A stretch of DNA of 64,000 nucleotides, taken from contig NZ_BBJO01000034.1 in NCBI RefSeq assembly GCF_000739575.1, forward strand, positions 1 to 64,000. Reading direction: 5' to 3'. The stretch is from Halobellus rufus. GTDB lineage: Archaea > Halobacteriota > Halobacteria > Halobacteriales > Haloferacaceae. The stretch's first letter is position 1. Every line of letters begins with the position of its first letter. This document shows, one piece after another, positions 33,864 to 39,791 of this stretch. The notes beneath the pieces are model-generated. The model saw nothing but the letters and a program-made list of their open reading frames with translations. It did no database searches and was not told the origin of the DNA. A program made the translations under genes and the position numbers.

Positions 33864-34970
33864 ATGGGTATTGCCGAGACGTACACACGCGGACGGCAGT
33901 TCGCGGTCACACGGCCGGGGTCCGTGCTGCTGGCGCTCGTTGGAGTCGTTCTGCTGTTTGACCTGCTCGCAGGTCTCGCGACGGGACAGCACTCCTTCAG
34001 CGGCGTCGGCTCGCTCGTCTGGGACGGGCTGATGCGCGGACTGGTCGTCGGTCTCGCGGGCATCGGGCTCTCTATGACGTACAGCATTCTGAACTTCGCG
34101 AACTTCGCGCACGGCGATTACATCACCGCTGGGGCGTTCTCCGGGTGGGCGACGACGTACCTCGTCGCCGGTCTGGGGCGCGCCGACGTTGGCGCGCTGC
34201 TGCTCGTCGGGGCGGGCGGCTCCGTCTTCGGCGGGTCACTCGGCATCGGCGTCACCGGGACGCCGCTGGCGGTCCTCGCGGGGATTCTGGTCTCCGGGGT
34301 CGTCACTGTGGGGCTGGCGCTGTTCGTCGACCGGACGGCGTTCCGTCCGATCCGCGACGCCGACGGGATCACGCTTCTCATCACCAGCATCGGCGTGGCG
34401 TTCGCGCTCCGCTATCTGATGCAGTTCGTCTTCGGTGCAAGCGTCCGCGGGACGACGGCCCAACCCCCCGCCGTCGGGCTGTATCTCGTCGACGGCTTCG
34501 TCCGCATCGACGCCCACGACGTCGCGCTCGTCGTCGTCGCGGGCGCGCTGATGCTCGCGGTGCACCTCCTCTTGCAACTGACGAAACTCGGCAAGGCGAT
34601 GCGCGCGATGGCCGACAACGAGGACCTCGCCCAAATCACCGGGATTCCGACAGAGCGCGTCGTTCGCGCGGTGTGGGTGATCGGCGGCGGACTGACGGGC
34701 GTCGCTGGCTACATGTTCATCCTCTGGAAGGGGACGCTCGGGTTCAACGACGGCTGGCTGCTGCTGCTCTTGATCTTCGCGGCCGTCATCCTCGGCGGGA
34801 TCGGGTCGATCTACGGGGCCATCGTCGGCGGTCTCGCGATCGGACTGACGGCGTCGGTCTCGGTCATCTGGATCCCCTCGGCGTTCGCCCGCGCGGCGGC
34901 GTTCTTCGTGATGATCGTGCTCCTGTTGGTGAAACCCGAAGGGCTCTTCTCCGGGAGGACGACGGCATGA
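33864..34970 (+). CDS. livH: Branched-chain amino acid ABC transporter permease, LivH type
   Basis: A 368-residue permease with about eight to nine membrane helices. The LivH signature ILNFANFAHGDYITAGAF (near 74-91) is intact. So is the EAA-type loop near AMRAMADNEDLAQITGIPTERV (about 247-268), which touches the ATPase. First gene of a livHMGF operon; the TATA-like CTTATCAT near 33818 is the probable promoter. Together with the other subunits it takes up leucine, isoleucine and valine or related solutes. Confidence 0.92.
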   Translation: MGIAETYTRGRQFAVTRPGSVLLALVGVVLLFDLLAGLATGQHSFSGVGSLVWDGLMRGLVVGLAGIGLSMTYSILNFANFAHGDYITAGAFSGWATTYLVAGLGRADVGALLLVGAGGSVFGGSLGIGVTGTPLAVLAGILVSGVVTVGLALFVDRTAFRPIRDADGITLLITSIGVAFALRYLMQFVFGASVRGTTAQPPAVGLYLVDGFVRIDAHDVALVVVAGALMLAVHLLLQLTKLGKAMRAMADNEDLAQITGIPTERVVRAVWVIGGGLTGVAGYMFILWKGTLGFNDGWLLLLLIFAAVILGGIGSIYGAIVGGLAIGLTASVSVIWIPSAFARAAAFFVMIVLLLVKPEGLFSGRTTA

Positions 34971-36301
34971 GCGTCCGCGACGACGTCGCCGACCGCATCC
35001 CGGGCGGCGACGCGGGGCTGATCGTCGTCGTCCTCCTCGCGCTGTACGCCGTGTACATTCTCGTGGGGGTCGGTCTCGGCTACTCAGTTCGCGGTCAGTT
35101 GAACACGATCGCCGTGCTGACCTTCTACATCGGCGTCTTCGCGATGCTCGCGCTCGCGCTCAATCTCCACTGGGGATACACCGGGCTGTTCAACATCGGT
35201 ATCGTGGGGTTCATGGCCGTAGGAATCTACGTGATGGCGCTGGTCTCGAAACCGTTGTACGGCTCCGGCGGCGCGGCGCAGGTCGGAGGACTCGGTCTGC
35301 CGCTGGTGGTCGGGATCGTCGCCGGGATGGTCGCCGCGGCCCTGCTCGGAGCGCTGGTTGCCTTACCGGCGCTTCGGTTGCGGGCCGACTACCTGGCGAT
35401 CGTCACGATCGCGATGTCCGAGATCGTCCGCTTTTCGTTCCTCTCGGGCGAACTCCAGCAGTTCCAGTTGTTCGGCGAGCGCGTCGGGTTCGGCGGCGGC
35501 TCCGGGCTCATCCTCGATTTCACCAACCCGCTGGAGGCGTTCTTCGCGTTCTTCGGACTGTGGGACGCCTATCTCGGCTTCGTCGACGCGTTCACCGTGA
35601 TCATCCCCAACAACCCGAAACCTGTCGTCGACGGACTCGTGTACGGCGCGGTGCTTCTCGGCTTCGTCGCCGCGTTCTTCTGGCTCCTGAAGCGAACAGG
35701 CGAGTCGCCCTTCGGGCGAGTCCTGAAGGCGATCCGCGAGGACGAGGACGTCGCGAACTCGCTGGGGAAGAACACGAACCGGTTCAAGATCAAGGCGTTC
35801 ATGCTCGGCTGTGCGCTGATGGGGCTGGTCGGGATCCTCTGGCTGATGACAAGCGGCGCGGTCACGCCGAACTTCTTCCGCCCTCGGATCACCTTCTTCG
35901 TCTGGATCGCGCTCATCATCGGCGGCGCGGGCTCGAACACCGGCAGCGTGCTCGGCGGAGCCGTCTTCGCCGCGCTCCTGTACCAGGGCCCGCGGTACCT
36001 GAAGAACCTGATCGACACGGTAATCCCGAACGCGGACGCGCCGTCGAGCTTCGGCCCGGCGGTCGCGCCGCTCGTCTCGAACTTCGACCCCGCACCGCTG
36101 TTCTTCTACACGATCGACAGCGTCCGACAGCTCCAACTCGTCATTATGGGGTTGGTGTTGATCTGGCTGATGCACAACCGCCCCGAGGGGATGCTCGGGC
36201 ACCGCAAGGAGACCGCCGCGGGGATTCCCCTGACCGCGTCGCGAGCGCGCGGGACGGCGAGCACCGACGGCGGCGACGCGGGAGGTGAGGTCGATGAGTG
36301 A
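34967..36301 (+). CDS. livM: Branched-chain amino acid ABC transporter permease, LivM type
   Basis: Starts at the ATG at 34967, overlapping livH by four bases; 444 residues. It has about nine helices. The LivM signature NLHWGYTGLFNIGIVGFMAVGIY is followed by the coupling loop VLKAIREDEDVANSLGKNTNRFKIKAF. Compared with bacterial LivM it has an acidic insert and a soluble acidic C-terminal tail after GMLGHRKE. It pairs with LivH to form the membrane channel. Confidence 0.92.
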   Translation: MSVRDDVADRIPGGDAGLIVVVLLALYAVYILVGVGLGYSVRGQLNTIAVLTFYIGVFAMLALALNLHWGYTGLFNIGIVGFMAVGIYVMALVSKPLYGSGGAAQVGGLGLPLVVGIVAGMVAAALLGALVALPALRLRADYLAIVTIAMSEIVRFSFLSGELQQFQLFGERVGFGGGSGLILDFTNPLEAFFAFFGLWDAYLGFVDAFTVIIPNNPKPVVDGLVYGAVLLGFVAAFFWLLKRTGESPFGRVLKAIREDEDVANSLGKNTNRFKIKAFMLGCALMGLVGILWLMTSGAVTPNFFRPRITFFVWIALIIGGAGSNTGSVLGGAVFAALLYQGPRYLKNLIDTVIPNADAPSSFGPAVAPLVSNFDPAPLFFYTIDSVRQLQLVIMGLVLIWLMHNRPEGMLGHRKETAAGIPLTASRARGTASTDGGDAGGEVDE

Positions 36302-37196
36302 CACCGACGCGACGAACGCCGAGGCGGAGTCAGAGCCCTCGGGCGCTGCGGGCGGCACGGGCGCGCCCACAACGGAAGAGCCGTCGACCCGGCTGGATCT
36401 CGGCTCCGGCGGCCCCGACGTCTCCGAGCAGTACCCGTTGCAGGTCGACGGTCTGCGAAAGACCTTCGGTGGGATCACCGCCGTCGACGACGCGTCGTTC
36501 CAAGTCGAGCGCGGGACGCTCACGGGCCTCATCGGCCCGAACGGCGCGGGGAAGTCGACGACGTTCAACCTCATCACCGGGATGCTGACCCCCGACGCGG
36601 GCACCGTCACGTTCGACGGCGAGGACATCACCGGCCAGCGGCCGCACGCGATCGCGAACAAGGGGCTCGTCCGGACGTTCCAGATCGCGAGAGAACTGCG
36701 GGATATGACCGTCTTGGAGAACTTAATGCTCGCACCGAAGGCCCAGCGCGGAGAGGCGCTCTGGCGCTCGGTCACTCCCGGCTTCCGCGACGACGTCGTC
36801 GAACAGGAGGAGGAACTCCTCGAACGGGTCTGGAACGTCCTCGAGTTCTTCGACATCGACCACATCGCCGAGGAGTACGCGGGCAACCTCTCCGGTGGGC
36901 AGCGCAAACTGCTGGAGATGGCACGCGCGCTGCTCACCGATCCGGACATGCTCCTGTTGGACGAACCGTTCGCGGGCGTCAATCCGTCGCTGGAGAAACG
37001 CCTGCTCGAACACGTACACGAACTGCGCGAGCAAGGCTACACCTTCCTGCTCGTCGAACACGACATGGACCTGATTATGGAGAACTGCGAGCGAGTGATC
37101 GTCCTGCATCAGGGGCAGGTCCTCACCGAGGGGTCACCCGCGGAGATTCAGGCGAACGAGGAGGTCATCGAGGCCTACCTCGGGGGGAACGTATGA
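36294..37196 (+). CDS. livG: ABC transporter ATP-binding protein, LivG type
   Basis: The ATG at 36294 overlaps the livM end by eight bases; a GTG at 36285 is an alternative. The 300-residue ATPase has an acidic N-terminal extension of about 45 residues, then Walker A GPNGAGKST, the signature LSGGQRKLLEMA and Walker B LLLDEPFAG. It is one of two ATPases that power the LivHM permease. Confidence 0.94.
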   Translation: MSDTDATNAEAESEPSGAAGGTGAPTTEEPSTRLDLGSGGPDVSEQYPLQVDGLRKTFGGITAVDDASFQVERGTLTGLIGPNGAGKSTTFNLITGMLTPDAGTVTFDGEDITGQRPHAIANKGLVRTFQIARELRDMTVLENLMLAPKAQRGEALWRSVTPGFRDDVVEQEEELLERVWNVLEFFDIDHIAEEYAGNLSGGQRKLLEMARALLTDPDMLLLDEPFAGVNPSLEKRLLEHVHELREQGYTFLLVEHDMDLIMENCERVIVLHQGQVLTEGSPAEIQANEEVIEAYLGGNV

Positions 37197-37975
37197 GCGC
37201 AGACACCGAACGGGACCCTCCGTCGGGTGACGGCGACGTGTCCCGAAAGACGGTCCCCGACCGCGAGGGGCAGTCGCTGCTCGAAGTGCGGGGCCTCGAC
37301 GCGGGCTACGGCGACCTGCAGATCCTCACCGACGTCGATATGGACGTCGCAGGCGGGGAGTACGTGACGATCGTCGGACCGAACGGCGCGGGGAAGTCGA
37401 CGGTGATGAAGTCGATCTTCGGGCTCACGTCGCACATGGGCGGGACGGTGACGTTCGAGGGCGAGGACATCACCGGACTCCGCCCCGAGGAGATCATCCA
37501 CGAGGGGATCGGCTACGTGCCGCAGAACGACAACGTGTTCGCCTCCCTGACGGTCAGAGAGAACTTGGAGATGGGCGCGTACATCCTCGATTCGGTGCCG
37601 CAGGACGCCCTCGACGCCGTCTTCGAGCGCTTCCCGATCCTCGAAGAGCGACAGTCGCAGAAGGCGGGGACGATGTCGGGCGGCCAACAGCAGATGCTCG
37701 CGATGGGTCGGGCGCTGATGTTGGAGCCCTCGCTGCTGCTCCTGGACGAACCGTCGGCGGGGCTCGCGCCCGACTTCGTCGACGATATGTTCGACCGCAT
37801 CGACGCGATCAACGACGACGGGACGGCGGTGCTGATGGTCGAACAGAACGCCAAGGAGGCGCTGCGGCGCTGTGATCGCGGCTACGTCCTCGCGAACGGA
37901 CGGAACCGCTACATGGACGACGGCGACGTCCTCCTGAACGACGAGCAGGTCCGCAAGGACTTCCTCGGTGGGTAA
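37193..37975 (+). CDS. livF: ABC transporter ATP-binding protein, LivF type
   Basis: A 260-residue ATPase that overlaps livG by four bases. Walker A is GPNGAGKST, the signature MSGGQQQMLAMG, Walker B LLLDEPSAGLAP. The motif GIGYVPQNDNVFASLTVRENLEMG is specific to LivF. It ends the livHMGF operon. The substrate-binding lipoprotein for the system is the convergent gene at 38394. Confidence 0.95.
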   Translation: MSADTERDPPSGDGDVSRKTVPDREGQSLLEVRGLDAGYGDLQILTDVDMDVAGGEYVTIVGPNGAGKSTVMKSIFGLTSHMGGTVTFEGEDITGLRPEEIIHEGIGYVPQNDNVFASLTVRENLEMGAYILDSVPQDALDAVFERFPILEERQSQKAGTMSGGQQQMLAMGRALMLEPSLLLLDEPSAGLAPDFVDDMFDRIDAINDDGTAVLMVEQNAKEALRRCDRGYVLANGRNRYMDDGDVLLNDEQVRKDFLGG

Positions 37976-38393: not shown

Positions 38394-39791
38394 TTATTCG
38401 GGGCCCGAAAGCGCCGTACTGATGACCGAGGAGTAGGAGGATTCGCCGATGTTGAAGGCGACCTGCCTGTAGACCTCACCGTCGAAGGTTTCCTCGAAGA
38501 CGTTGCTGAAGCGCTCGGAGAGCTGCTGGCCGTAGTCGTTGTTGACGTACAGCGTCGCGACGTTGTCGACGCCGAGCCGTTCGGACATCACCTGCGCCAT
38601 CACGCGGCCCTGGAGGATGTCCGACGGTGCCGTCCGGAAGATGTAGTCGTTGTCTTCGAGGTTCGTGACGGACAGCGCCGTTGACGAGGGCGAGCAACCG
38701 ACGACCTCGTTCGGGATGAACACCTCCTGAGAGACGGGGACGTTCACGCCAGAGGACGCAGACCCGCAGACGCTCGGGACGCCGGCGCTCACGAGCGACT
38801 CGGCCGCCGCGGTCCCGGCGCTCGGAGAGGTCTGGGAGTCCTCGATCTGGGCGTTGACCTCGAGGCCGGCGGGGTTGGCCTCGTTGATCTGAATCGCCGG
38901 GAGCTCGGCTGCCTGGATCATCGGCGCACCGACCGAAGCGAGGTCACCCGTCTCCGGCAGGAGGATGCCGACCGACATCTCGCGGTCGCTGCCGCCGGGG
39001 CCGCTGTCGGCGGCCGGTCCCGAACCGTCGGGGTTCTCGCCCTCGAAGTTCTGCACTTCGATGTTCTCGGCCGCTCCCTCGTCGGCGTTGAACTCCCAGA
39101 TCGCGTAGGCTGCCGAGGCCGGGTCGCCGGCCTCGTTGAAGTTCGTCGCCGAGGACGCGCCCTGGTAGTTCACGTCCTCGCCGTTGGCGGCCGCTTCGAT
39201 CCCCTCGACGAGGTTCTCCGGCGTGACCTCCATTCCGCCGGGGTTGGCGACCCGACGCATCTGGTCGCGGATCGCCGTCCCGTCGTTCTCTCCGGCGGCG
39301 GCGTTCGCGAGTAACTGGATCGCGACCGAGTCGTACGACTGCGAGGTGAACACGCCCGGCGAGGCGTCGTACTCCTCTTGGAAGAGGGTGTTGAACGCCT
39401 CCTGGTTCGGCCCGCCAGCCGCCGGGGCCGTCCCGATCACGTTCTCCATATCGTTTCCGACCTGTCCCGGCATCGACCCGTCTCTGAGGCCGTCCGGAAC
39501 GAGTATCTCCTCTTCGCCGTCCGACTGGCTGTAGTAGTCGCGGAACAGCTGAATCCCGCTTTCGGGGTAGCCGATGATGACGAGCCCGTCTGGGCCGTCC
39601 GAACTGCCGCCGCCGCTGTCACCGCTACTGTCTTCTCCACTGTCGCCACCGCTGTCCCCCCCACTGTCGCCACCGCTGTCTCCCCCACTGTCGCCGGGAC
39701 TGCCGATACAGCCGGCGACGCCTGTCGCGCCGATCGCTCCCGCCGCACCGACCTGCTTCAGGAATCTGCGTCGTACGATATCACGTGCCAT
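38394..39791 (-). CDS. Branched-chain amino acid-type ABC substrate-binding lipoprotein, circularly permuted
   Basis: Starts at the ATG at 39791, 465 residues. A Tat-type lipoprotein signal (RRRFLKQVGAAGAIGATGVAGC, lipobox Cys at 28) precedes a GDSGG-rich linker (29-66). The periplasmic-binding fold then appears in the wrong order. Residues about 67-255 are the second half of a LivJ-type protein (DGLVIIGYPESGIQLFRDYY to the family C-terminus). A short linker (about 252-270) leads to the first half: MSVGILLPETGDLASVG, SSGVNVPVSQEVFIPNEVVGCSPSSTALS, then SSYSSVISTALSGPE and stop. The usual order would join STALSGPE to DGLVIIGYPESG. Expected to supply livHMGF. Confidence 0.88.
   Translation of the reverse strand: MARDIVRRRFLKQVGAAGAIGATGVAGCIGSPGDSGGDSGGDSGGDSGGDSGEDSSGDSGGGSSDGPDGLVIIGYPESGIQLFRDYYSQSDGEEEILVPDGLRDGSMPGQVGNDMENVIGTAPAAGGPNQEAFNTLFQEEYDASPGVFTSQSYDSVAIQLLANAAAGENDGTAIRDQMRRVANPGGMEVTPENLVEGIEAAANGEDVNYQGASSATNFNEAGDPASAAYAIWEFNADEGAAENIEVQNFEGENPDGSGPAADSGPGGSDREMSVGILLPETGDLASVGAPMIQAAELPAIQINEANPAGLEVNAQIEDSQTSPSAGTAAAESLVSAGVPSVCGSASSGVNVPVSQEVFIPNEVVGCSPSSTALSVTNLEDNDYIFRTAPSDILQGRVMAQVMSERLGVDNVATLYVNNDYGQQLSERFSNVFEETFDGEVYRQVAFNIGESSYSSVISTALSGPE
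39606..39695 (-). repeat. GDSGG-coding low-complexity repeat
   Basis: Near-tandem 12- to 15-base units encode repeated GDSGG in the lipoprotein linker (residues about 33-62). Acidic low-complexity linkers after the lipobox are common in haloarchaeal lipoproteins. The DNA is prone to slippage and to assembly collapse. Confidence 0.8.

Follow-up and report, generated by a model that had tools for sequence, protein, structure and literature searches.

The locus and the rearranged protein

The 64,000-nucleotide stretch of Halobellus rufus contig NZ_BBJO01000034.1 analysed here (the window) carries on its reverse strand a gene for a LivJ-type substrate-binding lipoprotein whose two halves stand in exchanged order, next to genes for a LivHMGF-type transporter. 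The gene was delimited by translation, by Pfam model PF13458 and by a normal-order profile built from 14 unpermuted relatives; its 465-codon frame is open throughout, with no internal stop.

38394..39791, reverse strand: circularly permuted LivJ-type substrate-binding lipoprotein gene, 465 amino acids plus stop
39708..39791, reverse strand: twin-arginine signal with lipobox, residues 1-28 (from the sequence; TIGR01409 18.6 bits, cut-off 16.7)
39594..39707, reverse strand: low-complexity GDSGG-type spacer behind the lipobox, residues 29-66 (from the sequence; 12-nt repeats)
39042..39593, reverse strand: family C-terminal half, now first, residues 67-250, profile positions about 191-375
38985..39044, reverse strand: fusion linker from old C-terminus to old N-terminus, residues 250-269, egenpdgsgpaadsgpggsd
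38397..38984, reverse strand: family N-terminal half, now last, residues 270-465, profile positions 1-192

An earlier note, made from the letters of this DNA, had described a lipoprotein signal, a GDSGG linker and a permuted order of halves, and translation, PF13458 and the normal-order profile bear it out. PF13458 (Peripla_BP_6) scores the window protein at 106 bits against a gathering cut-off of 31.7, in two stretches, the better of which pairs residues 273-460 with profile positions 3-186. Against the normal-order profile, positions 191-375 come first and positions 1-192 second; the C-terminal half opens with PDGLVIIGYPESG at residue 67, the N-terminal half with REMSVGILLPETGDL at residue 270, and the chain ends in STALSGPE. 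The ends that are cut here stand joined in normal-order relatives, for example as SKLQSALSNDPDTLVVIGYP in locus L045. This first permuted register is designated P1, and a second register, cut at another loop with the fusion linker retained, P2. The overlap or gap between the two ends is no more than 5 profile positions in 149 of 152 P1 sequences. The segment order is rotated without large loss or overlap, which is what defines a circular permutation.

Sequence patterns, a twin-arginine signal with a lipobox, mark the protein as a lipoprotein predicted to be exported by twin-arginine translocation, in which Cys28 would be the residue that carries the lipid; a lipobox-like pattern is present in 147 of 152 P1, 29 of 30 normal-order and all four P2 sequences. 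An AlphaFold model of the permuted chain (predicted local distance difference test score, pLDDT, 89.6; predicted template modelling score, pTM, 0.86) predicts one fold with confidence. Ratios of nonsynonymous to synonymous substitution (dN/dS), computed with a Nei-Gojobori script, are 0.08-0.14 for the window gene against four relatives and 0.03-0.11 for the fusion linker alone in four pairs; conservation and purifying selection extend over both halves and the linker.

The window's genome is an 81-contig draft with an estimated contamination of 4.43%, as might suit an assembly artefact or decaying gene debris, but many independent assemblies show the permuted order, which excludes a swap of the halves during assembly, and the dN/dS values speak against debris; we regard either as scarcely credible. 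That this is a working protein, as first proposed, is upheld by the conserved order, the purifying selection, the confident model and the fixed site beside LivHMGF.

The short sequence GGCCC(C/A)GA, which the earlier note had seen at both cut points, is indeed there, but with 10 copies in the window against 8.2 +/- 2.4 expected it has no special role. At the protein level the corresponding motif, GP[DE], marks both cuts in no more than 14 of the 152 permuted sequences, and on these two grounds the 8-bp repeat was rejected as a recombination site.

Distribution and the linked transporter

The permutation is widespread in haloarchaea rather than a one-off. A colinear full-length permuted match is present in at least 34 of the 79 genomes compared (relatives and the window's own), and some match in 70; three relatives in other assemblies (G009, G007 and G011) match at 93% identity. 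Within the window's genus, 15 of 17 genomes have a colinear full-length permuted match, and the remaining two, which are 68% and 72% complete, show normal-order pieces only. A scan of named genomes yielded 79 loci from the best 80 of 178 confirmed stretches, and the 78 with a classified gene comprise 68 P1, 9 normal-order and 1 P2, proportions biased by the picking of loci for similarity to a permuted query. The 251 classified gene instances reduce to 152 P1, 30 normal-order and 4 P2 distinct sequences, the 152 being haloarchaeal. Genera among the matches include Halobellus, Haloferax (where the P1 form is present), Halogeometricum, Halorubrum, Halorussus, Haladaptatus, Natrialba and Natronorubrum. 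Five open reading frames (ORFs) were left unclassified, two in L156 and one each in L112, L130 and L003.

In a sample of 80 genomes from the phylum, none of the 69 from outside the order had a full-length colinear match; 17 had some match, and the five listed with both halves have them in normal order. A candidate third register in G402 (match 81-398) proved on profile alignment to be an ordinary P1, and a match running through stops in G277 was resolved as a single normal gene. One genome, G008, has two permuted copies (L068) about 10 kb apart and 93% identical to each other. Three others, G013, G028 and G066, encode a divergent normal-order paralogue (L054, L055 and L056; 41-54% per half) besides the permuted gene, and L054 adjoins a Liv cassette too.

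The transporter genes of the window run toward the binding-protein gene on the opposite strand.

33864..34970, forward strand: LivH-like permease, a presumptive name suggested by gene order
34967..36301, forward strand: LivM-like permease, its start inferred from an ATGA overlap
36285..37196, forward strand: LivG-like ATPase
37193..37975, forward strand: LivF-like ATPase, convergent neighbour of the binding-protein gene

Among loci of at least 9 kb, some of which overlap, a convergent LivF homologue lies no more than 1.5 kb away for 84 of 94 P1, 4 of 4 P2 and 14 of 27 normal-order gene instances. Normal genes at the corresponding site (e.g. L045, L046 and L146) have LivHMGF and a uridine kinase-like neighbour as in the window. 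Unpermuted, P1 and P2 forms thus occupy one place beside the same transporter genes, and the presence of unpermuted relatives at the same place by LivF indicates that the gene was rearranged in situ. The window's own genome has no unpermuted orthologue; besides signal-region matches it holds only a distant paralogue, 30-31% identical over one half. Given this and the shared site, the permuted protein is most simply taken as the binding protein of the adjacent importer, whose substrates, to judge by the gene neighbourhood, would be hydrophobic amino acids.

A proposed duplication in place and the number of origins

Very probably the gene product serves the neighbouring LivHMGF-type (hydrophobic amino acid) ATP-binding cassette (ABC) importer as its substrate-binding lipoprotein, permuted at an outer alpha-to-beta loop. 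The gene body would have been duplicated in tandem, in place, the old C-terminus joined to the old N-terminus by way of a new linker, and the product then trimmed at a loop; the two halves would close round a ligand of the amino acid type, much as LivJ does, and deliver it to LivHM. Permutation by duplication is a published model, set out in PMC3320104, and whole head-to-tail copies at the locus in Haladaptatus sp. DYF46 and G076 are the starting material that this route needs. These copies (L125:6782-9607 and L080:5880-8692) are permuted pairs beside the transporter, 63-68% identical to each other, and the second type has no lipobox cysteine.

Some observations weigh against this account. The window protein scores 63.4 against NCBIfam model NF011933, for high-affinity branched-chain amino acid substrate-binding proteins, far below its curated cut-off of 477; the normal-order relative L045 likewise falls below it, at 64.9. 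Among the 251 classified genes, moreover, there are whole tandem or nearby copies only and no partly duplicated or split gene, so that tandem duplication with trimming, the origin first suggested, is plausible but has left no visible intermediates. Nor were relics of the moved halves found outside the ORFs: a search for the 251 genes gave 12 hits, of which eight are whole second copies (L040, L080, L125 and L068), two a divergent paralogue in L112 and two one weak hit (29%, E 0.002) common to L001 and L011. Fission of the gene into halves and their re-fusion in opposite order, a known route to permutations according to PMC3320104, would predict split half-gene pairs; none occurs among the classified genes, a weak objection given that loci were chosen by whole-length similarity, and we rate this route as improbable.

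The P1 sequences fall into three groups, a (the window's), b (L042-like) and c (L043-like). Full-length matches to group b at 70% or more occur in 32 of 391 genomes, plus one truncated, and matches to group c at 73% or more in 24 of 391. Trees were computed on single gene copies thinned at 80% identity, without L054, L055 and L057, and the outgroup tree also without L056. Group a has support of 100/99 (99/99 with the outgroup), group b is nested with the normal-order L059, L180 and L168 at 98/98 and 100/93 (99/98 and 99/93), and group c joins normal-order sequences at 91/93 (83/90). The linkers, ..NPdGsGPaADsgPGGsdR in a, NELSDEDRNATAADPVGVDSFEA in b and IPQPEPxGSGSDSGR in c, have nothing in common. 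The LivHMGF genes, an independent witness provided that they travel with the binding protein, reject a single P1 clade at p 1.3e-10 for all 44 loci and 2.6e-4 without L041 and L054; in the latter set they also reject b+c (p 0.009) and a+b (p 2e-8). Two origins of P1 are likely, and three origins from the normal order are the best single estimate. P2 arose from P1 at least twice: a single P2 clade is rejected (approximately unbiased (AU) test, p 4e-15), and P2 proteins carry the linker of group a.

Several results pull the other way on the number of P1 origins. The AU test on the binding protein itself gives one P1 clade p 0.012 without and a borderline 0.064 with the outgroup; joining groups in pairs gives 0.146 and 0.074 for b+c, 0.093 and 0.094 for a+b, and 0.052 for a+c, values that are exploratory, since the first tree was already at hand when groups b and c were defined. 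The C-half tree unites b and c with support of 87. The binding protein of L041 belongs to group a, and its LivHMGF genes lie, weakly (80/39), among normal-order, b and c loci. One ancient P1 event in early haloarchaea, with normal genes regained or brought in later and a, b and c as its remnants, would accord with the outgroup value above 0.05, with the union of b and c in the C-half tree and with a cut at the identical profile position in all three groups. However, P1 forms one side of a branch in 0 of 200 bootstrap trees, the five outgroup proteins, from other families of the phylum, are in normal order, and the unrelated linkers and the transporter genes argue against it further; a single event seems unlikely. 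At L041:5823-7301 (reverse strand count), the discord between the two trees hints at an exchange between binding protein and transporter.

Known proteins and the position of the anchor

The window protein has the PF13458 domain and LivHMGF neighbours in common with LivJ/LivK-type proteins (type I substrate-binding proteins; PDB 4n0q, 3ipc, 3td9 and 4gnr), and differs in its swapped halves, its new fusion linker and an anchor placed before a strand of the second half. Solved LivJ-type proteins align over residues 1-195 with its N-terminal half, and residues 10-195 of 4n0q match its second half (E 2.8e-14); aligners, whether of sequence or of fold, pick up just one half of such a protein, a warning for annotation. 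Unpermuted haloarchaeal orthologues (such as L045, L046 and L146, of Halogranum and kin) have the identical site beside LivHMGF and 55-63% identity per half, but the normal order and no internal linker.

As a rule, circular permutation is encountered as one old event that sets distant families apart. In this case the normal, the once-permuted and the twice-permuted form all occur, with repeats, in syntenic genes that are close relatives, so that how fast permutation happens, by which route and at what cost to fitness can be tested with natural proteins in a tractable host, Haloferax, which carries P1. Swaposin, DNA methyltransferases and transhydrogenases, discussed in PMC3320104, are likewise natural permutations, in some families more than once; what sets the present case apart from the families treated there is that a secreted substrate-binding lipoprotein was permuted without leaving its place by a fixed operon, and that a second permutation was twice added to the first. 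Among the matches listed in the open-access literature (biosensor work and general papers), with subscription literature mostly outside the search, no natural permuted substrate-binding protein was found, haloarchaeal or other. Natural circular permutation was already known; its stacking and repetition in one syntenic gene are new as far as these searches reach.

In type I binding proteins the chain passes from lobe to lobe three times. Their N- and C-termini thereby come to lie in different lobes, and the view that both termini share one lobe is doubtful. In the models the P1 cut (about profile position 191) and the P2 cut (about position 38, before the second strand) both precede a strand. 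On the usual type I topology, the P1 cut would fall in lobe 2 and that of P2 in lobe 1. In that case the anchor went over from lobe 1 to lobe 2 with P1 and came back with P2. With its long Gly/Asp/Ser spacer, the lipid anchor should be attachable in front of nearly any outer strand, and such moves would then be tolerated.

Selection on the site of the lipid anchor might make the re-permutations adaptive returns, with the anchor back in lobe 1 next to the strand that was originally first, as the placing of both cuts before a strand and the two origins of P2 from P1 could suggest; most P1 lineages, however, never moved back, and five P1 proteins have no lipobox at all, which leaves this explanation doubtful. 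A bolder reading, to which we give slightly less than even odds, is that of about three independent P1 permutations at one loop followed by two re-permutations at a second loop that returned the anchor to the ancestral lobe, possibly with selection on anchor position. Should this hold, nature would offer a series of circular permutations, repeated and stacked, in a family whose chain ends wander. Three more permuted proteins, of L131, L132 and L034, carry no recognisable lipobox and are possibly secreted without a lipid anchor.
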